Shown here in pieces: positions 8,064 to 24,778 of a DNA stretch of 64,000 bases. This DNA is from Streptomyces sp. NP160 (GTDB lineage Bacteria; Actinomycetota; Actinomycetes; Actinomycetales; Quadrisphaeraceae): the NCBI RefSeq assembly GCF_006335115.1, contig NZ_VDMJ01000009.1, positions 1 through 64,000 of the forward strand. The letters run 5' to 3'. The notes beneath the pieces were generated by a model. The model had not been told where the DNA came from and searched no databases. It saw only the letters and a list, made by a program, of their open reading frames with translations. The position numbers and the translations under genes were made by a program. Position 1 is the first letter of the stretch. Each line of letters opens with the position of its first letter.

Positions 8064-9322
8064 GCCGCCGGCTCCTGGACGACCGGCTCGGCGGACCGCC
8101 GGGCGCGACCGCGCCCCGCGGCGACCGCCGCTGCCAGGAGGACCGCCGCGGCGAACGCGAGCACGCCCGTCGCGTGGAGCGCGCCGTGGTGCTCGGCGAG
8201 CCACCCGGCCGCGGCCGCGCCGCTGCCCACGCCGACGACGATGCCGCTGCCGACCAGGGTCATGGCGGTGGCGCCGCTGGCGGCGGTGCTGCGCTCGGCG
8301 GCCATGGAGGTGATGGTGACCATGGCCGGCCCCACGGCCAGGCCGGCCAGCGCGGTGGCGGCCGCCAGGGCCAGCAGCGAGGGCGTCAGGGCCAGCGAGA
8401 CGGCCATCGTCGCGATGCCGACGAGGAGCACGCCCGCCGCGGTCGCCAGCCGCGCCGACAGCGAGACCCGCTCGGGCACCGCGACCATGGCCAGCGCGGT
8501 GAACGCCGACCCGACGCCCATGGCGGCCACCAGCAGCCCGCCCGCGCCGATGCTGCCGGCCTCCTGCGCGGCGGCTGTCAGCGTGGTCTGGCCGCCGCCG
8601 AAGAACAGGCCCATGCCCACCGCGGCGGCGATGACGACGGCGAGGCGGCGGAAGAGCTCACCGCTGGCGCGCGACCCGGTGCGCGCGCCGCCGCCGTCTG
8701 CGGCGGCGCTGCCCGTGGGCGTCGTCGCGCTGGGGTGCAGCGCGAAGGCCGGCACGGCGACCGCCACGAGCGCCGCCGCCACCAGCAGGGAGGTCGCCGG
8801 CGACCCCACGAGGGCCACCACACCGGCCAGGGCCGGGCCGAGGACGTAGGCCACCTCGTCGGCGGCGCTCTCCCCCGCCATCGCGGTGGGCACCAGCGCC
8901 GGGGTGCGCCGCATCCAGCGGGCGCGGGAGAAGGAGCCGATGGGCGGCATGGCGAACCCCGCCGCGAAGGTGGCCAGCAGGAGCAGGGGCACGGGCAGCA
9001 GCCCCGCGCCGGTGGCCACCACGAGCAGGGCGGCCACGTTGACCGCGGCGGCCGCCAGCAGCACCGGCCGCTGGCCGCCGCGGCGGGCGAGCCGGTCGGC
9101 GAGGGCGCCCAGGGTGGGGCCGCCGACGGCCTCGCCGACCGAGGTGGCGGCGGCCGCCAGGCCGCCCACCGCCACGGACCCGGTGCCCGAGGTGACCGCG
9201 GCCAGCACGGAGACCGGCACGAGCGTGATGGGCAGGCGCGCTGAGAAGGCGGTGACGAGGTAGGGGGTGCCGGCCGCCCGGTGCAGCTCTGCGTAGGGGG
9301 CGAAGGAGGCGGTGAGGCTCAC
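8060..9322 (-). CDS. Major facilitator superfamily transporter
   Basis: This 420-residue inner-membrane transporter has about twelve hydrophobic helices in two halves. Between helices 2 and 3 is GGPTLGALADRLARRGGQRP, matching the MFS loop motif. A hydrophilic central loop (about residues 190-225, TTPTGSAAADGGGARTGSR) separates the halves. The substrate cannot be told; general resemblance is to drug/sugar efflux-type MFS of actinomycetes. GTG 9322 (VSLTASFAPYAELHR) is the start nearest the first helix. Its stop overlaps the start of rsmD by four bases, so rsmD is probably read from the same transcript. Confidence 0.88.
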   Translation of the reverse strand: MSLTASFAPYAELHRAAGTPYLVTAFSARLPITLVPVSVLAAVTSGTGSVAVGGLAAAATSVGEAVGGPTLGALADRLARRGGQRPVLLAAAAVNVAALLVVATGAGLLPVPLLLLATFAAGFAMPPIGSFSRARWMRRTPALVPTAMAGESAADEVAYVLGPALAGVVALVGSPATSLLVAAALVAVAVPAFALHPSATTPTGSAAADGGGARTGSRASGELFRRLAVVIAAAVGMGLFFGGGQTTLTAAAQEAGSIGAGGLLVAAMGVGSAFTALAMVAVPERVSLSARLATAAGVLLVGIATMAVSLALTPSLLALAAATALAGLAVGPAMVTITSMAAERSTAASGATAMTLVGSGIVVGVGSGAAAAGWLAEHHGALHATGVLAFAAAVLLAAAVAAGRGRARRSAEPVVQEPAA

Positions 9323-9429
9323 GAGACGTGCTCCAAGGGACGTGTGCGCCTCCCCACCACAGGACGCACGGATCCCTGAGCTTCTGTCGAGGACATCGTA
9401 GGGCGCACCGACCGCTGCGGCCAGCAGGT

Positions 9430-11721
9430 TCAGCCGCGCTCGACGAAGGCCTCGCGCTCCTCGAGCCGCTCGAGCGCCTCCCTCACGCGGGGGGCGTCGG
9501 TGAGCTCGGGGTCGAACGCGACGAGGTCGCTGGCGTAGCGGCGGGCGCGGGTGATGAGGTCCTCGTTGCCGAGCACCCTGAGGTACCGCAGCGAGGAGTT
9601 GTTGCGACCCGACTGCGCGGCGCCCAGCACGTCGCCCTCCCGGCGGGACGCGAGGTCGAGGTCGGCCACGGCGAAGCCGTCGGTGGTCTCGGCGAAGCTC
9701 TTCAGGCGCCCCAGGCCCGCCTCGTCCTCCTGCGCCCCGGTCATGAGCAGGCACAGGCCCGGCTGGTCGCCCCGGCCGACGCGCCCGCGCAGCTGGTGCA
9801 GCTGGGACAGGCCGAACCGCTCCGCGTCGACGATGACCATCACCGTGGCCCCGGGGACGTCGACGCCGACCTCCACGACGGTGGTCGCCACGAGGACGTC
9901 GAGCTCCCCGGCGGCGAAGGAGCGCATGGCGGCGTCCTTGTCGTCCGGGCGCATCCGCCCGTGGAGCGTGCCGAGGCGCAGCCCCGCCAGCTCGGGCCGG
10001 GCCCGCAGCTCGGCCAGGACCTCGTAGAGCGCACGCGGGGGGCGGCGGCCCTCCTCGTCCTCGCCCGGGGCCCCGCCGAAGAGCTGCCCCTCCTCCCCGC
10101 CGGGCTGGGAGCGCTCGGCGCGCTCACCGGGGTCGGGCGCGGACAGCACGCCCTCGTCGTCGTCCTCCGCGCCCTCCCCGATGCGGGGGCAGACCACGTA
10201 CACCTGGTGGCCGGCGTCCGCGGCCTCCCGGACGCGCTGCCAGCACCTGTCGACGTAGTTCTCGCGCCAGTCGGGCACCACCGCGGTGGTGATGCCCTGA
10301 CGGCCGGCGGGCAGCTCGGTGAGCGTGGAGACCTCGAGGTCCCCGAAGACCGTCATCGCCACGGTGCGTGGGATGGGCGTGGCCGTCATGACGAGCACGT
10401 GGGGCGGCACGCCGGACTTGGCGCGCAGCGCGTCGCGCTGCTCCACCCCGAAGCGGTGCTGCTCGTCGACGACGACGAGACCGAGGTCGTAGAAGTCGAC
10501 GGCGTCCTGCAGCAGCGCGTGGGTGCCGATGACGATGCCCGCGTCCCCACTGGCGACGTCGAGCAGCGCCGCCCGCCGGTCGGCCGTGGACTGGGAGCCC
10601 GTGAGGAGGCGGACCTGGACCTGCGGGCCTCCGCTGACCGCTCCCCCGAGCAGCCCGTGGGCCGCGAGCGGGCCGAGCATCCGCGTCAGCGAGCGGACGT
10701 GCTGCTGGGCGAGCACCTCCGTGGGCGCCAGCAGCGCGCACTGGGCGCCGGCGTCGACCACCTGGAGCATCGCCCGCAGCGCCACCACCGTCTTGCCCGA
10801 GCCGACCTCGCCCTGCAGCAGCCGGTTCATCGGGGAGGTGCGCGACAGGTCGGCGCTCAGCGCGCCTCCCACCTCCTGCTGCCCGGCGGTCAGCTCGAAC
10901 GGCAGGGAGGCGTCGAAGGCGGCCAGCAGGCCGCCGTCGCGAGCCGGGTAGGGCGTGGCGGGGAGGACGGCGAGGGCCGCGCGGCGCCTGGCCAGGGCCA
11001 CCTGCGTCACGTAGGCCTCCTCGAGCTCGAAGTGCCGGCGCCCGCGGGGCGGCTGCTCGAGGTCGGTGGGGCGGTGCAGGTGGAGCAGGGCGTCGAGCTT
11101 GCCGGGCACCTGCTCGAGGTCGCGCACGCCCGAGGGCAGGACGTCGGGCACGTCCTCGGGGGTGAGCGTGTCCAGCACGGTGGCGACGGCCTTGGCCGTC
11201 TTCCAGCTGGGGAGGTTCTTGAAGGCGGGGTAGACGGGGATGACCTCGTCGGCGCGGGCTCGCAGCGCGTCGGCGTCGGTCGCCATGACGGTGTCGAGGT
11301 CCCCGGGGAGGAGCTCGTACTCGGGGTGCACCAGCTGCAGGCGGCCGCGGTAGCTCTGGACCTTGCCGGAGAACATCGCCGCCTTCCCCCACTTCAGGCG
11401 GCCCTGGTGGTAGGCGACCTGGTTGGTGCGCCCGAAGAACGCCAGCGACAGCTCGTCGCGGCCGTCGGTGACCACCACCTCGACCATCATCCCGCCGCGC
11501 TGCCGCAGCGGGCGGGTGCTGGTGCGCACCACCTCGGCGACGACGGTCGCGTCCTCGCCCTCCACCAGCTGCGACAGCGGGGTCAGCTCTCCGCGCCGGT
11601 AGTAGCGGCGCGGGAGCACGAGGACGAGCTCGCCCGCGGTGGTGACACCGTGGGTCTTGGCGAAGACCTGGGCGTTCTTGTCACCCAGCTCCTTCTTGAG
11701 CGGCGACGACAGCCGGGACAC
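9430..11721 (-). CDS. recG: ATP-dependent DNA helicase RecG
   Basis: RecG remodels stalled replication forks and branch-migrates recombination intermediates. The roughly 763-residue protein has an N-terminal wedge/OB region ([15 protein letters not shown]). Walker [16 protein letters not shown], the DEQH box [10 protein letters not shown] and motif [11 protein letters not shown] follow. Helicase domain 2 includes [18 protein letters not shown] and [16 protein letters not shown] 40-residue acidic/Arg insertion (residues near [20 protein letters not shown]) is unusual. GTG 11721 ([13 protein letters not shown]) was chosen because RecG proteins begin this way and CAGTCT ends seven bases upstream; GTG 11751 would add ten residues. 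It is divergent from rpmB. Confidence 0.96.
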
Positions 11722-16939: not shown

Positions 16940-18145
16940 GTGCACGACTCCCCCGCCGGCTCAGCCTGGTCGCCCGAGACCCTGGCGGTGGCCGCCGGCC
17001 GCCCGCCCCGCACCCCCGACGCGCCGGTCAACCCCGCGGTGCAGCTGACGTCCACCTTCGTGGCGAGCACCGAGCCCGGCGCGCGCGGGTACGCGCGGTT
17101 CGCGAACCCCACGTGGGAGGCGCTGGAGGAGGTCCTCGCGCTCCTGGAGGACGCGCGCCCGGCGGACGGCGGCGGCGCCCGGTCCTTCGCGTCGGGGATG
17201 GCGGCGGTCAGCGCGGTCGTCGAGCAGGTGCCGGTGGACGGCCTCGTCATCGCCCCCGAGAACGCCTACAACACCACGCTCGGCCTGCTCGACCACCTGG
17301 AGGCCACCGGGCGGCTGCGCCAGCTGCGCGTGCCGACCGCGGACACCGACGCCGTCGTCGCCGCCCTCGCCGACACCTCCCCCGGCGACCTGCTGTGGCT
17401 GGAGTCGCCCACCAACCCGCTGCTGGAGGTGGCCGACCTGCCGGCGCTGTGCGCGGCGGCGCGGGAGGCCGGCGTGCGCACGGCGGTGGACAACACCTTC
17501 GCCACCCCGCTCGTGCAGCAGCCGCTGGCGGTGGGCGCCGACGTCGTCGTCCACTCGGTGACGAAGTACCTCGCCGGGCACTCCGACGTGGTGATGGGCG
17601 CGGTCGTCACCCGCGACGCCGACCTGCTCGCGGTGCTGACCCGGCACCGCACGCTGACGGGCAGCATCCCGGGCCCGTTCGAGGCGTGGCTGGCGCTGCG
17701 CGGCGTCCGCACGCTGCACCTGCGCGTGGAGCGCTCCCAGGCGAGCGCCGCGGAGCTCGCCCGCCGCCTGGTCGACCACCCGGCGGTGAAGCGCGTGCGC
17801 CACCCCTCGCTGCCGTCGGACCCCGGCCACGAGCGCGCCAGGGCGCAGATGCGGGGCTTCGGGTCCGTGCTGTCCGTCGAGGTGCACGGCGGGGCCGCCG
17901 GCGCCCAGGCCGTGCAGGAGGCGACGCGGCTGTGGCTGCCCGCCACCAGCCTGGGCGGCGTCGAGTCGCTCGTCGAGCGCCGGCGCCGCCACCCGCTGGA
18001 GCCGGTGGTGGTGCCGGAGGACCTGCTGCGCCTGTCCGTGGGCGTGGAGGACGTCGAGGACCTGTGGGCCGACCTGTCCCAGGCCCTCGAGGCGGCCGTC
18101 CCGTCAGCTGCTGCGGCGCGCCAGGACCGGGGCGAGCAGGGCTGA
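16940..18145 (+). CDS. PLP-dependent cystathionine gamma-synthase/lyase family enzyme
   Basis: This 401-residue enzyme is of the Cys/Met metabolism PLP family. Early landmarks are NPAVQLTSTFVAS, RFANPTWEALEEVLALLE and the cofactor-binding RSFASGMAAVSAV. The PLP Asp lies in TAVDNTFATPLVQQP and the Schiff-base lysine at about residue 209 in VHSVTKYLAGHSDVVMG. ATSLGGVESLVERR and LRLSVGVEDVEDL close the protein. Whether it is a cystathionine gamma-lyase, a gamma-synthase or a methionine gamma-lyase cannot be settled. GTG 16940 has TAGCCT ending six bases upstream. Its 3' end overlaps the convergent glycosyltransferase gene by 42 bases. Confidence 0.9.
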   Translation: MHDSPAGSAWSPETLAVAAGRPPRTPDAPVNPAVQLTSTFVASTEPGARGYARFANPTWEALEEVLALLEDARPADGGGARSFASGMAAVSAVVEQVPVDGLVIAPENAYNTTLGLLDHLEATGRLRQLRVPTADTDAVVAALADTSPGDLLWLESPTNPLLEVADLPALCAAAREAGVRTAVDNTFATPLVQQPLAVGADVVVHSVTKYLAGHSDVVMGAVVTRDADLLAVLTRHRTLTGSIPGPFEAWLALRGVRTLHLRVERSQASAAELARRLVDHPAVKRVRHPSLPSDPGHERARAQMRGFGSVLSVEVHGGAAGAQAVQEATRLWLPATSLGGVESLVERRRRHPLEPVVVPEDLLRLSVGVEDVEDLWADLSQALEAAVPSAAAARQDRGEQG

Positions 18146-19357
18146 CACCAGCGCGGCGGTGGCCACGCGCCCGGGTCGCAGCGGCCGCGGGCCCCGCGCC
18201 GGACGGCGCCGCCCGGCGCGCAGGTCCACCAGCTCGACGGCGCTCGCGTCGGCCGGGACGAGCAGCGCGAGCACGGCCTCGGCGGGGTCGCCCAGCTGCG
18301 GCGCGCGGCGGCCGCGGGCCAGCGCCGAGCGCAGTGCCGGGGCCAGCTCCTCGTCGGTGCGCGCCCAGGGCGCGAGGCGGGCGCCCTCGAGCACCGCGGC
18401 GTTGGCGCGCCCGTGGCCGGGGATGCACCGGTAGCTGACGGCGGGCAGGCCCGCCACGAGGGCCTCGGTGTAGGACAGGCCACCGGCGTTCTGCACCAGG
18501 ACGTCGGCCGCGCTGAGCAGCTCGTGCACGTCGCTGCGCCAGCCCAGCGCCACCGCGCCCGGCACGGCGGAGACCTGGGCGCGCAGCTCCTCGTTGCGCC
18601 CGCACAGCACCATCGGCACCAGACCGGCCTCGGCCACGCGGGCCGCGCTCTCGGCCACGTCACCCAGCCCCAGCGACCCGGCCACCAGCAGCGCCACCTT
18701 GCGCGCCGGGTCGATGCCCAGCTCGCGCCGCAGCTGCGCGCCGCGGCCGGCGGGGACCTGCGTGAAGCGCTCGGGCACCAGGGGACCGACGGCGGTCATG
18801 GGGGTGCCGTAGTCGCGCCGCCCCTGGCGGGCGGTGGCCTCCGTGACGGTCCAGTGGTGGTCGACGCCGGGGTGGATCCACGACCGGTGCGCGGCCGGGT
18901 CGCACAGGTAGGTCACCACCGGGACCCGCAGGCGCCCCTTCTCGCGCAGGTGCCCCAGCGCCTGGCTGGCGAGCGGGTACGTCGAGACGACCAGCGAGTA
19001 CGGGCGCCGCCGCGACCAGCGCTGCAGGCGCCAGCAGCTGGTGCGGCACAGCAGCGCGAGCAGGCAGCGCCAGAACCGGGAGTCCTCGAGCACCCCGAAG
19101 AGCCACTCGAACAGCGCCGGCACCCGGCCGACGCTCTGCGTGTACCCCTGGCGCAGGAACAGCGCCGCACCCGGCACGAGGGCGCTCAGGTGGTCCTCGA
19201 CGTCCACGTGCACGCCCAGCGCGCGCAGGCGCTGCGCGAGCTCGTTCGCGGCGCCGTCGTGGCCGGCGCCGACGCTGCCGGAGACGACGAGCACGCTGGC
19301 CCACGGCTCGGGCTCGACGTCGAGCACGACCTGGGGTTCGGCCGGGGGGTTCAGCAC
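18104..19357 (-). CDS. MGDG-synthase/MurG-like glycosyltransferase
   Basis: This 417-residue GT-B protein resembles UDP-sugar:diacylglycerol glycosyltransferases and MurG. The N-terminal acceptor half opens SVLVVSGSVGAGHDGAANEL (glycine loop) and includes VVTYLCDPAAHRSWIHPGVD. The C-terminal UDP-sugar half has VALLVAGSLGLGDVAES, DVLVQNAGGLSYTEALVAG and YRCIPGHGRANAAVLEGA. A hydrophobic stretch near the C-terminus (ATAALVSALLAPVLA) may anchor it to the membrane. It is the last gene of the response regulator-deacetylase-transporter run, with its start overlapping the preceding transporter stop by seven bases. A glycolipid or lipid-linked sugar product is inferred. Confidence 0.85.
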   Translation of the reverse strand: MLNPPAEPQVVLDVEPEPWASVLVVSGSVGAGHDGAANELAQRLRALGVHVDVEDHLSALVPGAALFLRQGYTQSVGRVPALFEWLFGVLEDSRFWRCLLALLCRTSCWRLQRWSRRRPYSLVVSTYPLASQALGHLREKGRLRVPVVTYLCDPAAHRSWIHPGVDHHWTVTEATARQGRRDYGTPMTAVGPLVPERFTQVPAGRGAQLRRELGIDPARKVALLVAGSLGLGDVAESAARVAEAGLVPMVLCGRNEELRAQVSAVPGAVALGWRSDVHELLSAADVLVQNAGGLSYTEALVAGLPAVSYRCIPGHGRANAAVLEGARLAPWARTDEELAPALRSALARGRRAPQLGDPAEAVLALLVPADASAVELVDLRAGRRRPARGPRPLRPGRVATAALVSALLAPVLARRSS

Positions 19358-20259
19358 AGCTCCTCCTCAGGGGAGTGGGGTGTCTCGCGAGGGTTCTCGG
19401 CGGGGGCGGCCCCGGGGGCCTCCCCCGCGGTGAGGCGCGCCAGCATCACCACGGCGGTGATCATGAGCAGCACGCCGACCAGCTGCACGGCCCGCGCGCC
19501 GTCGCCCGCGGCGAGCCGCTCGCTGAAGGCCACGGCCCCCACGACGGCGGCGGCGACGGGCTCGGCGATGGTGATGACCGGCTGGGAGGCGGTGAGCACC
19601 CCGACGCGGTAGCTGGACTGGTTGAGCACCACGCCCGAGGCGCCGGCCACGAGCAGGGCCCACAGCGGCCAGGTGCCCAGCGCGTCCAGGAGCCCGTCCG
19701 CCTGGTAGCGGCCGGTGACCTCCTTGAGCAGCGCGCCCGCCAGGCCCAGCGCCGTGCCTCCTGCGAACCCGAGCAGCACCGCGCGGTAGCGACCGCCGCC
19801 GGCCCGGGACAGGAGGGCTGCCGCGGCCACCACCGCGGCGCCGGCCAGCGCGCACGTGCGCAGCGCGACGGGCTGCGCGACGGCGCTGCCGCCGCCGGGC
19901 TGCGCGGACACCAGGAAGACGGCGAGGCCGACGACGACGGCGGTGGCCCACAGCCACTCGAGCAGCGGCGGGCGCCGCCCCTCCACCAGCACCGACAGCG
20001 GCAGGGCCAGCAGCAGGCCGGTGACCAGCAGCGGCTGCACGACGAGCAGCGCGCCCTGCGAGAGGGCCAGCGTCTGCAGCGCCGCGCCCACCAGGCCGAA
20101 GACCAGCCCGAGCAGCCACAGCCGCTGGCGCAGCAGGGTGAGCACCAGCCGAACCCCGGTGCCGCTGTCGGCGGGAGCGGTGGAGGCGGCGCGGTGCTGC
20201 GTCACCGTGGAGCTGGCGAAGCAGGCGGCGGCCGCGAGGGCGAGGACGACGGCGAGCAC
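19351..20259 (-). CDS. DMT-superfamily transporter, paralogue 1
   Basis: This 302-residue protein has about nine to ten hydrophobic helices, starting MLAVVLALAAAACFASSTVT. The family-like QHRAAS segment follows, then LSQGALLVVQPLLVTGLLLA and ALPLSVLVEGRRPPLLEWLW. Later NQSSYRVGVLTASQPVITIA mirrors the first half. It fits the EamA/NIPA-like drug/metabolite transporter superfamily; the substrate could be a lipid-linked sugar, a small amine or magnesium. It abuts the second paralogue with no gap and has the same length, so the pair likely works together or arose by tandem duplication. Confidence 0.85.
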   Translation of the reverse strand: MLAVVLALAAAACFASSTVTQHRAASTAPADSGTGVRLVLTLLRQRLWLLGLVFGLVGAALQTLALSQGALLVVQPLLVTGLLLALPLSVLVEGRRPPLLEWLWATAVVVGLAVFLVSAQPGGGSAVAQPVALRTCALAGAAVVAAAALLSRAGGGRYRAVLLGFAGGTALGLAGALLKEVTGRYQADGLLDALGTWPLWALLVAGASGVVLNQSSYRVGVLTASQPVITIAEPVAAAVVGAVAFSERLAAGDGARAVQLVGVLLMITAVVMLARLTAGEAPGAAPAENPRETPHSPEEELC

Positions 20260-21168
20260 TCAGGCCACCTCACGCCGCGCGCCGGGACGATCGGGACGGC
20301 CCGGGCGCTCCGGCTGGTCGTGGAGGTCCGGCACCACGGCGGCGATCGCGATGACGCCGGCCACCATGAGCAGCGCCCCCACCACCTGCCCCGCCACGGG
20401 CAGGGCGCCCACGGCGAGGTGCTCGGCGAAGGCGGTGGCGCCGATGGCCGCGGCCACGGCCGGCTCGGCGATCGAGTGCGCCGGCTGCGACGCGGACAGG
20501 TGCCCGGCGGCGTAGCCGGCCTGCGTGGCGATGAGCCCCGCGACGCCCGTGAGCACCACCCCGGCGAAGGCCGGGTCGAGCAGGGCGTCGAGCGGGCCGC
20601 GGCCGAACAGCCCGACGACCTGCTTGAGCAGCGCGCTGGAGACGCCGATGAGCGCCCCTCCGGACAGTCCCAGCAGCAGCGCCTTGCGCTGGCGCAGCAC
20701 CGTCTCGCCCAGCAGCGCGGCCAGCAGGGCCAGCGCGATCCAGCCGCCGGCGGTGACCAGGAGGTGGCCCTGCCGGGCCACCGGGACCCCGCGGTCGGGG
20801 TCTGCCGCCACGATGAACAGCGCCAGCCCCACGAGCACCGCCAGCGCGGCTAGCACCTCCCCGCGGCTCGGCATCCGGCGCGCCAGCGCGTCCGACAGCG
20901 GCAGGGCCAGCAGCAGGCCGAGCAGCAGGATCGGCTGGACGACGACGAGCGCGCCCTGGCTCAGCGCGAGCGCCTGCAGCAGCAGCGCGGCCACGGCGGC
21001 CACGAGCCCGACCAGCCACAGCGGGCTGCGCGCCAGGCGCGCCACCAGGCGCAGCGGGGAGGTGCCCGTCCCCTCGTCGGCGTGCGCCACGGCGGCGCGG
21101 TGCTGGGCGACGGTGGACAGCGCGAAGCAGGCCGCCGACGCCAGGGCCAGCCAGATGTCGGCCCTCAC
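20260..21168 (-). CDS. DMT-superfamily transporter, paralogue 2
   Basis: This 302-residue membrane protein is clearly related to its downstream neighbour. Shared segments are ACFALSTVAQHRAAV, ALSQGALVVVQPILLLGLLL and ALPLSDALARRMPSRGEVLA, and both have ASQP(A/V)xxIAEPxxAA in the second half and end in a short charged tail. GTG 21168 overlaps the polysaccharide deacetylase stop by four bases. Equal lengths with diverged sequence suggest an old duplication maintained as a pair, possibly a heterodimer. The substrate is unknown. Confidence 0.85.
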   Translation of the reverse strand: MRADIWLALASAACFALSTVAQHRAAVAHADEGTGTSPLRLVARLARSPLWLVGLVAAVAALLLQALALSQGALVVVQPILLLGLLLALPLSDALARRMPSRGEVLAALAVLVGLALFIVAADPDRGVPVARQGHLLVTAGGWIALALLAALLGETVLRQRKALLLGLSGGALIGVSSALLKQVVGLFGRGPLDALLDPAFAGVVLTGVAGLIATQAGYAAGHLSASQPAHSIAEPAVAAAIGATAFAEHLAVGALPVAGQVVGALLMVAGVIAIAAVVPDLHDQPERPGRPDRPGARREVA

Positions 21169-21970
21169 GGCGCCACCGCCGCGGGCGTCCCCGCCGTCGT
21201 CGTCCTGCCCACCCCGAGGTGGTCGGACAGCAGGCGGAGCTCCCAGCCGCGCTCGCGGACGGCGGCCACGACCGCCGGCAGGGCGGCGGCGGTGCCGCGC
21301 CAGGAGCCGGGCGCGGAGGTGCAGTCGGAGTCGTGCAGGAGCACGGTGCCGCCGCCGCCGGCCGGGCCGGGGGCGTCGCGGTGCAGGCCGGCAAGCACCG
21401 TCGAGGCCACCCGGTCGCCGCCGTGCCCGAGCCAGTCGCGGCCCCAGGCCGTCCACAGCACGGGCCGCAGGCGCGAGGCGCGCGCGGCCAGCAGGGTCCC
21501 GCCGGAGACGGCGCCGTAGGGCGGACGCGTGAGGCGGAGCCCGGCCTCGACGTCCACCGCGCCCAGACCGCTGGCCACGGCGTCGCGCACCACCGCGGCG
21601 TGGGCGCGCTCGAGGTCGGCGGCCAGCGCCGGGGCGGTGCGGGCCAGGTGGTTGCGGTGCTCGTGGCCGTGCAGCGCCACCTCGTGGCCGTCGGCCAGCA
21701 GCTGCGCGACGTGGCCGGGGTGGCGCTCGACCTGGCTGCCGAGCACGAAGAAGGTGGCCCGCACGCCCAGGGCGTCCAGCACCCGTCGGACCGCGGGGGT
21801 GCCCTCGGGGTGGGGGCCGTCGTCGAAGGTGAGGGCCACCCCGCCCGGGGCGCCCCGGCCCAACAGCCCCGGCACCACCCGCTCGCGCCAGCGGCCGCGG
21901 CCCAGCACCGACGGCGCGGCGTGGCCGACGACGGCGGCGCCGACGAGCCCCGCGGCCAGGGCGGCGGGCC

Positions 21971-21974
<4 letters not shown>
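21165..21974 (-). CDS. Polysaccharide deacetylase (CE4/NodB family), membrane-anchored
   Basis: This 269-residue enzyme has an N-terminal hydrophobic segment (RPAALAAGLVGAAVVGHAA) acting as signal or anchor, so the catalytic domain should be outside the membrane. NodB motifs are present: TFDDGPH with Asp51/Asp52, GHEVALHGHEHRNH with the His-x3-His metal ligands, RPPYG, and GTVLLHD near the end. CE4 enzymes remove acetyl or formyl groups from amino sugars. It overlaps the response regulator gene by four bases upstream and the transporter gene downstream, placing it in the same operon. The sugar substrate is not evident. Confidence 0.9.
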
Positions 21975-22687
<713 letters not shown>

Positions 22688-22822
22688 GACGACACCTCCC
22701 GCGGGAGGGGTCGCACGTGGCGGCGGCCGGTCATGCTGTCCTCTCGTGGGGCGGGTGCTGGCAGCTCGCTCTGGGAGCGCGCTGGACGCCACGTCATGCA
22801 GGGTCGACTGAGAGGGTGCCCG
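22688..22822. promoter_or_regulatory. Intergenic region between response regulator and divergent histidine kinase
   Basis: These 135 bases must hold the promoters of both the envelope operon and the sensor kinase. I see no clear -35/-10 pair or strong direct repeat for the response regulator. GAGAGGG at 22810-22816 is the Shine-Dalgarno sequence for the kinase GTG at 22823. Confidence 0.35.
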
Positions 22823-24313
22823 GTGCTGGATGACGGAGCGGTGAACCCGCCCCGGCGCGTCGCCGGCGGCCTGCGCCGTCCGGGGGCGGTCCGTCCGGGG
22901 CCGGGCCGTCCGGGGCTGGGGAGGCTGCTGCCGGCCGCGCTGCGGGCCCGGCTGGCGGTGCTGTTCGCCGCCGCGGTGGCCGTGGTGATCGCCGCCGGCG
23001 TGGGCCTGCTGGCCTTCGCCACCGACCGCCAGTTCGACGCCGCCGTCGACACCGGCCTCACCACCCGGACGTCGGCGCTGCTGCAGGCGCTGGACCGCGG
23101 CGACGTGAGGGTGGTCCGCGAGGACCCCATCGCCGAGCTCGTCGCCCCGGACGGGACGCTGGTGGAGACCTCCCCCGCCGCGTCGGTGCTGGAGTCCCGC
23201 GGGGGCCGGGCCAGCGACGAGTCCTTCCTGCCGGCGCGGGTGCTCGCCGAGGTGCGGGCCACGGGGTCGGCCGTGAGCGACAGCCTGGAGCTGCCCCGCC
23301 AGGGGCGCGTGCGCTTCACCGCCACCCCGGTGTCGGTGCCCGAGGCCGGTGCGGTGCTCGTGGTGGGCACGCGGATGCGCGAGCTGGACGAGGCCGAGAC
23401 GCGCCTGGTGCTGCTCTTCCTCGCCGGGGCCCCGCTGCTCGTGGCGAGCCTGGGCCTGGCGGGGTGGGTGCTGGCCGGCGCGGCCCTGCGGCCGGTCGCG
23501 GACCTCACGCGGCGCGCCGCTCGGCTCTCCGCCGCCGAGCTGGACCAGCGGCTGCCGCAGCCACCGGGAGCCGACGAGGTGGCGGTGCTGGCGCGCACCC
23601 TCAACGGGATGCTGGACCGGCTGGAGGCGGCGGTGCGGCGCGAGCGGGAGTTCGTCGACGACGCCGCCCACGAGCTGCGCACGCCCATCGCGGTGCTGCG
23701 GGGTGAGCTGGAGCTGGCGCTGAGGCTGGGACGCGACCTCCCGGAGGACGCGGCGGAGTCGCTGGCGGCCGCACTCGGGGAGGCCGAGCGGCTCGAGCAC
23801 CTCGCCCAGGACCTGCTGGTGCTCGCCTCGACCGAGCGCGGCGCCAGCGCGCGCGCCCCGGTGGACCTGGCGGCCCTGGCCCGCAAGGAGGCCCCGCGGC
23901 TGGGGGCCGCGCACCCCGTGGACGTGCGGGTGAGCGGCCCGGCCGCCGTGGTCGAGGGTGACGAGCGGGCGCTCGGGCGGCTGCTCGCCAACCTCGTGGC
24001 CAACGCCGAGTCCGCGGGCGCCGCACGGGTCCAGGTGCGCACCGCGGTCGCCGACGACGAGCGCGTGCAGCTGGTGGTCGCCGACGACGGGCGCGGGTTC
24101 CCCCCGGAGCTGGTGGCCACGGCCACGGAGCGCTTCACCCGCGGTGACGCGGCGCGGACCCGGGCCTCCAGCGGCGCGGGCCTGGGGCTGGCCATCGTCG
24201 CGGCGGTCGTCGCCGACCACGGGGGCCACCTCGAGCTGGGCCACGACGACGAGCTGGGCGGGGCCGCCGTCGTGGTGCGGCTCCCCCGGGCGCGCAGCGG
24301 CCCCCCGCGCTGA
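22823..24313 (+). CDS. Sensor histidine kinase (HisKA type)
   Basis: This kinase of about 496 residues has a first transmembrane helix near RARLAVLFAAAVAVVIAAGVG and an extracytoplasmic sensing segment of about 120 residues. A second helix (LVLLFLAGAPLLVASLGLAG) and a HAMP-like ALRPVADLTRRAARLSAAEL follow. The H-box is VDDAAHELRTPIAVLRGELE with His about 283. The ATP domain has N-box NLVANAESAG, VVADDGRGFPPE and SGAGLGLAIVAAVVADHGG. GTG 22823 was chosen for its Shine-Dalgarno sequence; in-frame ATGs at 22733 and 22796 are alternatives. The cognate regulator is divergent rather than co-transcribed. Confidence 0.92.
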   Translation: MLDDGAVNPPRRVAGGLRRPGAVRPGPGRPGLGRLLPAALRARLAVLFAAAVAVVIAAGVGLLAFATDRQFDAAVDTGLTTRTSALLQALDRGDVRVVREDPIAELVAPDGTLVETSPAASVLESRGGRASDESFLPARVLAEVRATGSAVSDSLELPRQGRVRFTATPVSVPEAGAVLVVGTRMRELDEAETRLVLLFLAGAPLLVASLGLAGWVLAGAALRPVADLTRRAARLSAAELDQRLPQPPGADEVAVLARTLNGMLDRLEAAVRREREFVDDAAHELRTPIAVLRGELELALRLGRDLPEDAAESLAAALGEAERLEHLAQDLLVLASTERGASARAPVDLAALARKEAPRLGAAHPVDVRVSGPAAVVEGDERALGRLLANLVANAESAGAARVQVRTAVADDERVQLVVADDGRGFPPELVATATERFTRGDAARTRASSGAGLGLAIVAAVVADHGGHLELGHDDELGGAAVVVRLPRARSGPPR

Positions 24314-24352: not shown

Positions 24353-24778
24353 TCAGGCGGCGGGCTGCTCGGGCTGCTCGGGCTGCTCGACCGGTGCGAC
24401 GTCGCTGGCGATGGCGACGGTCACCGTCTCGGGCTGGACCGGGGCGGGGAACATCCCCGCGACGCGCACGCGCAGCACGCCGGCGTCGTAGCGGGCGCTC
24501 ACGGCGTCCGCGGTGACGCCCTCGGGCAGGCGCACGGTGCGGGAGAAGCGCGCCTCGCGGCGCACGCCGCCGAGCACCTGGCGGCGGGCACCGGCGACGA
24601 CGAGGCGGTCGCCGGTCACCTGCACGGACAGGTCGCGCGCGGGGTCGAGGCCGGGGGCCTCGGCGGTCAGGACGCCGTCCTCGCCGTCGCGCTCGAGCGA
24701 GACGGCCGGGGCGGCGGGGGCGGGGACGTCGAAGGCCCAGGTGCGCAGGGCCGGGCGACGCAGGACGAGCGTGCTCAT
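24353..24778 (-). CDS. Small heat shock protein, Hsp20/alpha-crystallin family
   Basis: This 141-residue chaperone has an alpha-crystallin domain from about residue 28: VSLERDGEDGVLTAEAPGLD, LSVQVTGDRLVVAGARR and REARFSRTVRLPEGVTADAV. DAGVLRVRVAGM replaces the usual GVLTVxVP-type end. The tail is a Glu-Gln-Pro repeat (VEQPEQPEQPAA) rather than an IxI motif. GAGGAG precedes the ATG. An HspR-type HAIR-like dyad lies 52 bases upstream, consistent with heat-shock repression by HspR. Confidence 0.92.
   Translation of the reverse strand: MSTLVLRRPALRTWAFDVPAPAAPAVSLERDGEDGVLTAEAPGLDPARDLSVQVTGDRLVVAGARRQVLGGVRREARFSRTVRLPEGVTADAVSARYDAGVLRVRVAGMFPAPVQPETVTVAIASDVAPVEQPEQPEQPAA

Follow-up and report, generated by a model that had tools for sequence, protein, structure and literature searches.

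In the NodC-NodB, IcaA-IcaB/PgaB and holdfast HfsH systems, GT2 enzymes build oligo- or polysaccharides, and the deacetylases of the PIG-A/PIG-L and mycothiol MshA/MshB pathways have the PIG-L fold and work on the cytoplasmic side. In the Arn system, ArnD is a CE4 enzyme, ArnC is a GT2 enzyme, and ArnE and ArnF are small proteins. According to a review (PMC12748117), ArnC acts on undecaprenyl phosphate, ArnD acts before translocation, and ArnT follows. Here we analyze a locus of Streptomyces sp. NP160, placed by GTDB in the Quadrisphaeraceae, within a stretch of 64,000 nucleotides (the window; NZ_VDMJ01000009.1, positions 1 to 64,000). Its five minus-strand genes encode a glycosyltransferase (GT), two DMT-type membrane proteins, a CE4 deacetylase and a response regulator (RR), and a sensor histidine kinase (HK) gene diverges from them. 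The original prediction, made from the sequence alone, likened this set to Arn in kind and read it as a regulated pathway that makes, flips and trims a sugar-modified lipid.

The GT and one CE4 subfamily form a linked module across the Actinomycetota, an observation of which we are virtually certain. The module is real and conserved and, to judge by our searches, undescribed; its GT and dedicated CE4 deacetylase probably serve a lipid substrate. No description of a GT-CE4 module was found in the open-access literature; a study of the sigma-E regulon (PMC6767563) lists separate EamA and deacetylase genes that could not be mapped to the module.

Linkage of glycosyltransferase and deacetylase across the Actinomycetota

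Relatives were fetched with a GT profile (alignment A1), and the best 80 of 125 confirmed relatives became the named loci, a set that leans towards the kin of the query. They span Streptomyces, Streptacidiphilus, Kitasatospora, Amycolatopsis, Micromonospora, Planosporangium, Actinomadura, Geodermatophilaceae, Frankiales, Acidimicrobiia and others. Profile HMMs were run on all six-frame open reading frames of these loci. A CE4 match fell within a 4.5-kb span of the GT in 67 of the 80 loci, on the same strand as the GT in 53, and within 900 bases in 52 of those. DMT matches, scored with a custom profile wider than the curated NF038012 model, occurred near the GT in 44 loci; 39 loci had both CE4 and DMT, and 72 had one or the other.

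Outside the genus of the window the gene order is reshuffled, and many loci have a single DMT gene or none. Geodermatophilaceae carry GT-CE4-DMT behind a divergent RR/HK pair, Micromonospora has CE4-GT-DMT, one Streptomyces group has CE4-DMT divergent from the GT, and in most acidimicrobial loci the DMT gene diverges from GT-CE4. Because the GT-CE4 linkage outlasts these rearrangements, it argues for a shared function more strongly than does an order kept among close relatives.

The same association is seen in 396 genomes drawn from the phylum. With a single-protein query, 25 of them (24 besides the window's own) gave a GT match at E ≤ 1e-25, and in 19 of those 24 a CE4 match lay no more than about 4 kb from the best GT, the others being G200, G214, G229, G294 and G496. 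A search of the 396 genomes with the CE4 profile serves as an independent test of the subfamily linkage. The CE4 subfamily scored above 180 bits in 22 genomes, the GT scored at least 180 bits in 24, and 20 genomes had both; in 20 of the 22 a GT stood no more than about 3.5 kb away on the CE4's own contig. Fisher's test on this co-occurrence gives p of about 1e-27, for a threshold picked after the lists had been viewed and for genomes that are not independent. As for the two genomes with the CE4 only, the gene lies at the start of its contig in G385, and within 17 kb of it in G238 there is only a weak, partial GT-like match (22 bits, about 5 kb away).

In the fetched loci, 89 of 96 CE4 matches scored 227-352 bits, against a profile built from these very matches. 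The window CE4 scored 266 bits and the next-best CE4 of its own genome 63, a comparison that is partly circular because the window CE4 was itself used to seed the profile. Three domains in that genome exceed the CE4 cut-off; its DMT_1 genes also number three, and all of them adjoin its two GT copies. The second GT copy (G000:C121, locus L056, 7070-8341, minus strand) is 56% identical to the window GT and has a divergent DMT_1 gene (8244-9443, plus strand); a weak CE4-like match of 22.5 bits, below cut-off, lies about 3 kb from this DMT gene. On a GT tree of 112 rows, made by a quick method from the 80 named loci, 31 of 39 further loci and the window, CE4 linkage is found in 88 rows with none nearby in 24, the two states being scattered with 13 changes.

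In acidimicrobial-type loci (L099, 10513-12853; L111, L118, L119, L104), genes for AI2E-like and YbhN/UPF0104-like membrane proteins, labeled by eye, come after the CE4 gene.

Enzyme families, donor site and fused chains

The window GT matches the Pfam family MGDG_synth at 42 bits, against a gathering cut-off of 25. It scores 107.9 bits with the diglucosyl-diacylglycerol synthase model PRK13609, far short of the cut-off of 500, and weakly (18 bits) with MurG; the predicted MGDG/MurG-like character thus holds for its MGDG part and fails for its MurG part. The best solved relatives of the A1 profile are a processive diacylglycerol beta-glucosyltransferase (E 1.2e-44) and MGD1 (E 1.3e-36). These matches place the GT in the MGDG/UgtP family, as a branch that has diverged from the rest. 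The divergence extends to the donor site: the QE pair of UgtP and MGD1, which we take to contact the hexose, has become H-G in 105 and H-I in 3 of the 112 GTs, and the lysine before the glycine pair has become asparagine in 102, serine in 4, and threonine or histidine in a few. The window GT reads N...GHG. Four of the 112 rows retain both K and QE, and all four are without a CE4 nearby. A second, distant type of GT-CE4 pair occurs in one family of the phylum (L176, 5374-7268; L177, L180, L181).

The window CE4 matches Polysacc_deac_1 at 82.5 bits. Its highest-scoring NCBIfam models, NodB at 98.6 bits and PdaB at 86.3 bits, both stay below cut-off, and its structure-known matches include peptidoglycan deacetylases and an acetyl-xylan esterase. 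It has the catalytic motifs, and the residues D51, D52, H102, H106, R150 and H214 are invariant in the 17 rows of alignment A3. Among 87 linked CE4s, TFDDG is present in 84, HxxxH in 87, RxPY in 86 and an LLHD-type motif in 87. A hydrophobic stretch precedes TFDD in 79 of 84 linked CE4s, by hydropathy on stop-to-stop frames, and the CE4 is probably exported and membrane-tethered.

In some lineages, the GT chain itself carries a deacetylase-like domain. Of 111 GTs, 89 have tails of at least 20 residues, and these tails were searched. A C-terminal CE4-like domain of about 180 residues, lying beyond a hydrophobic segment, was found in 28 of the 111 at E < 1e-9, 23 of these 28 tails having built the profile; there was one further weak match, in L121. 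A separate CE4 match lies nearby for 27 of the 29 tail matches. Three tails run against Pfam gave no match for the fused domain. Compared by hhalign with the profile of the linked CE4s, it scored 97.9% (E 4.7e-13) and, in a second comparison, 95.7% (E 8.5e-9), as against 0.1% with five control profiles. The FDD motif is absent from all 30 fused tails examined, two of which (L106 and L112) have no match at E < 1e-9 and are probably not the CE4-like domain. The fused domain, placed here by sequence profiles, is, from its motifs, likely a pseudoenzyme. That a GT and a CE4-like domain are joined over a likely membrane segment supports both their partnership and the placing of the CE4 on the outside. 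In L081, from one Frankiaceae metagenome-assembled genome, the N-terminus of the GT is also fused to a PAP2_3 domain (158 bits), which could feed diacylglycerol to the GT. Besides L081, no N-terminal fusion with at least two hydrophobic segments was found among GT matches of at least 150 bits, and the loci searched by profile gave no second PAP2 match.

The operon in its genus and its regulators

GT matches at E ≤ 1e-10 were found in 13 of 198 genomes drawn from the order, the window's own included, and five of these are other genomes of the same genus. All five keep the order thiL-DUF3515-Ddl-CGL-GT-DMT2-DMT1-CE4-RR/HK, with spacings, taken to the nearest start or stop, of -4, -4, (0, 0, 2, 0, -1) and -7. 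The five-gene arrangement in the genus is more than chance. The kept order and spacings are good evidence that the five genes would be read as one translationally coupled operon. None of the loci fetched from outside the genus showed this exact order; conservation beyond close relatives, on which the original prediction had made its reading depend, holds instead for the rearranged GT-CE4(-DMT) association in many actinobacteria.

Table 1. Features of the operon and its divergent kinase gene (window positions)
Feature	Position	Strand	Remarks
MGDG/UgtP-type GT-B glycosyltransferase (GT), 417 aa	18104..19357	-	MGDG_synth; hydrophobic segment at residues 395-413; donor motif NAGG...PGHG
DMT2, DMT_1 family membrane protein, 302 aa	19351..20259	-	9 hydrophobic segments by hydropathy
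DMT1, DMT_1 family membrane protein, 302 aa	20260..21168	-	9 hydrophobic segments by hydropathy; 49% identity with DMT2
CE4 (NodB-like) deacetylase	21165..21974	-	Motifs TFDDG, HGHEH, RPPYG, LLHD; hydrophobic segment 6-24; GT-linked CE4 subfamily
OmpR-family response regulator (RR), 238 aa	21971..22687	-	Response_reg and Trans_reg_C
Presumed promoter region between divergent RR and kinase genes	22688..22840	.	Kinase start uncertain
Sensor histidine kinase (HK)	22841..24313	+	HAMP/HisKA/HATPase; hydrophobic segments 40-58 and 189-207

The predicted overlaps agree exactly with the starts and stops of the reading frames: 4 bases between RR and CE4 (21971-21974), 4 between CE4 and DMT1 (21165-21168), none between DMT1 and DMT2, and 7 between DMT2 and GT (19351-19357). 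The OmpR-family regulator and divergent kinase were likewise borne out, by the domain matches in the table. For the kinase start, 22841 was adopted from candidates that include 22733, 22796 and 22823, among others. A search of 17900-23100 gave neither a sigma-70-like promoter nor an intrinsic terminator, a result that carries little weight because the G+C content is about 78%.

Two features of the flanks are recorded here. The GT gene and a convergent cystathionine gamma-lyase/synthase-type gene (16940-18145, plus strand) overlap at their 3' ends by 42 bases (18104-18145). A small HSP20-like gene, so labeled by eye, lies at 24353 to about 24800 (minus strand) between the kinase gene and gpsA; it is absent from that site in the five same-genus genomes, where the kinase and gpsA matches end tens of bases apart.

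Two-component control, as predicted, is represented at the window locus by the divergent RR/HK pair, and elsewhere it does not take the form of one conserved partner. Among the named loci, 25 of 80 have a kinase or regulator match within 4.5 kb of the GT, with an RR above 100 bits in 15 and some of the others weak. BlaI- or M56/M48-type matches occur in 21, and either these or two-component genes in 38; in many Streptomyces and Amycolatopsis loci the BlaI- and M56/M48-type genes take the two-component position. The GT-linked response regulators split among several clades, with the window RR grouping with its genus, and this rules out one conserved, dedicated two-component system. These response regulators do not form a single orthologous group, and so it seems that different regulators of the envelope type were taken up on repeated occasions. 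Pairs of a BlaI-like penicillinase repressor and an M48/M56 peptidase adjoin GT-CE4 in L117 (6272-7724), L112, L109, L130, L135 and L139, the L117 pair alone having been run against Pfam; such neighbors suggest a link to the sensing of wall antibiotics.

Both DMT proteins exceed the NF038012 (DMT_1) cut-off of 50 bits, at 142.2 and 107.2 bits. With 49% identity between them, a heterodimeric pair is possible, but two DMT genes are present in only 4 of the 80 named loci. A reading of the DMT proteins as NIPA-type magnesium transporters, which would have told against the original prediction, was rejected: PF05653 has no match in the window's own genome at E ≤ 10, nor in a Pfam scan at E ≤ 1.

A proposed pathway and its alternatives

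We propose that the five genes specify a regulated pathway whose product is a de-N-acetylated membrane glycolipid bearing an amine, a reading that we regard as evenly balanced between right and wrong. The GT would move an N-acetylated sugar, likeliest N-acetylglucosamine or N-acetylgalactosamine, from a nucleotide sugar onto a lipid of the inner leaflet, likeliest diacylglycerol; from its family we are fairly confident that it makes a glycolipid. The DMT_1 proteins may then carry this glycolipid to the outer leaflet. This is the weakest step, and one that we put forward tentatively. The exported and probably membrane-tethered CE4 would next act outside to take off the acetyl group, so that an amine is set free and the surface becomes less negative. 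That the CE4 acts outside is likely, given its hydrophobic stretch and the fused chains, and that it acts on the product of the GT is probable, if somewhat less so. Under envelope stress, the divergent kinase and response regulator might turn the operon on; here the arrangement is seen, and the signal is our suggestion. The predicted pathway of making, flipping and trimming a sugar-lipid thus finds its lipid-type GT, its probably exported deacetylase and its DMT proteins, with the flipping, the sugar, the acceptor, the side and the signal as the inferred parts.

Several observations weigh against this proposal. Linkage is incomplete: neither CE4 nor DMT lies near the GT in 8 of the 80 named loci (two of these contigs end within about 0.2 kb of the GT), 24 of the 112 GTs on the tree have no CE4 nearby, and the second GT copy of the window's own genome has a DMT gene and no above-cut-off CE4 nearby. 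The altered donor site does not always coincide with the deacetylase, since 20 of the 108 GTs with H-G or H-I are without a nearby CE4 (88 have one), and the distant pairs L176, L177, L180 and L181, whose adjacent CE4s score 145-150 bits, retain K...PGQE. A GT can therefore pair with a CE4 without a changed donor site, and the rule that a QE donor site means no CE4, which held in the four QE rows of the 112-row tree, is broken by these four pairs. The DMT association is looser still: DMT_1 matches occur in 53 of the 396 genomes, only 10 of which are among the 37 with a GT, and by the curated model the gene adjoins the GT in 5 of those 37. Our confidence in flipping was lowered because so few DMT_1 genomes have a GT. 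HxxxH is present in 2 of the 30 fused tails, and the PAP2 fusion is a single case. Finally, the targets of CE4 enzymes also include peptidoglycan, chitin and O-acetyl groups.

The substrate could instead be a carrier. The GT might build a polyprenyl-linked N-acetyl sugar, which the CE4 would deacetylate before a transferase encoded elsewhere passes the amino sugar to a wall polymer. MurG-type GT-B enzymes use undecaprenyl acceptors, and the galactosamine of mycobacterial arabinogalactan offers a parallel. Arn works through such a carrier (PMC12748117). We consider this route unlikely, however, given that the GT scores 108 bits with diglucosyl-diacylglycerol synthase as against 18 with MurG, and that no further sugar transferase was recognized in the 23 neighbor clusters common to at least 6 loci, which were partly labeled by eye, were not all identified and include some reading frames that are wrong. 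The one GT with a PAP2 domain, which could make diacylglycerol, also speaks against a polyprenyl carrier, although PAP2 proteins have other roles, including acting on polyprenyl phosphates.

Alternatively, an ordinary glycolipid maker and an ordinary deacetylase of peptidoglycan or another wall polymer may share a locus since both are envelope-stress genes. The matches of the CE4 to structure-known peptidoglycan deacetylases, the several kinds of linked regulators and the four distant pairs with a UgtP-like donor site would all fit such an arrangement. Yet one CE4 subfamily follows one GT family over the phylum and a GT shares one polypeptide with a CE4-like domain in 28 cases, so co-regulation alone is insufficient and we hold this explanation to be doubtful. 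It is quite improbable that the CE4 takes an O-acetyl or other acyl group off a glycolipid with no amine formed: an acetyl-xylan esterase is among its structure-known matches, but the best NCBIfam matches, below cut-off as they are, are to NodB and PdaB, and no O-acetyltransferase was recognized among the shared neighbors (labeled by eye, some clusters without identification).

Returning to the amine-bearing glycolipid, a broader and more speculative reading, which we think possible rather than probable, is that a cationic glycolipid, glucosaminyl- or galactosaminyl-diacylglycerol, is produced in many actinobacteria by machinery that works on both sides of the membrane: a cytoplasmic GT with a re-specified donor pocket and a dedicated extracellular CE4. 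In Acidimicrobiia, Frankiales and others the GT would itself span the membrane and end in an inactive CE4 domain, which could serve to hold the substrate, present it or sense it. Such machinery, controlled by envelope stress, might be a Gram-positive counterpart, in effect, of the Arn and MprF charge modifications, and it would be a candidate source of GluNU, the unidentified glucosamine-containing lipids of actinomycete chemotaxonomy (PMC4585250). If true, this would mean a membrane-lipid modification pathway scattered over the Actinomycetota, Streptomyces and Amycolatopsis included, and a likely pseudoenzyme fused over the membrane to the partner of its active relative. Surface charge and the tolerance of cationic peptides would become testable as its roles, and there would be a gene handle on the GluNU lipids.

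Among described systems, Arn (PmrHFIJKLM) invites comparison because a sugar is put on a lipid, an acyl group is removed, a DMT-type pair is present and control is two-component; the window operon, too, has a CE4-type deacylase (Polysacc_deac_1, 82.5 bits), and the outcome, an amine on the surface, may be alike. However, the window GT is of the MGDG_synth/GT-B type and not of the ArnC type, the DMT proteins have 302 residues and are not a small pair of the ArnE/ArnF type, and there is no ArnT, ArnA or ArnB among the five genes of the window, to which the search was confined, no whole-genome search having been made. The window CE4 also looks exported, whereas ArnD acts before translocation (PMC12748117). 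The GT family, the DMT size and the lack of ArnT among the five genes rule out plain Arn orthology; the original prediction was right that these are not simple Arn orthologues, and its likeness to Arn stands in kind and not as membership.

UgtP/YpfP and plant MGD1 belong to the same GT-B family, and the window GT can be aligned with both solved structures. It differs in being linked to a CE4, in scoring far below the NCBIfam cut-off, and in belonging to a set in which QE has become HG or HI in 108 of 112 and K has become N in 102. The NodC-NodB, IcaA-IcaB/PgaB and HfsH systems share the coupling of a sugar-transferring enzyme to a dedicated CE4 N-deacetylase, but the window GT is of a lipid-glycosylating type. 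PIG-A/PIG-L and MshA/MshB share the chemical logic, in which N-acetylglucosamine is put on an acceptor and then N-deacetylated to an amine; by contrast, the module described here uses a CE4 enzyme, probably on the outside of the cell.

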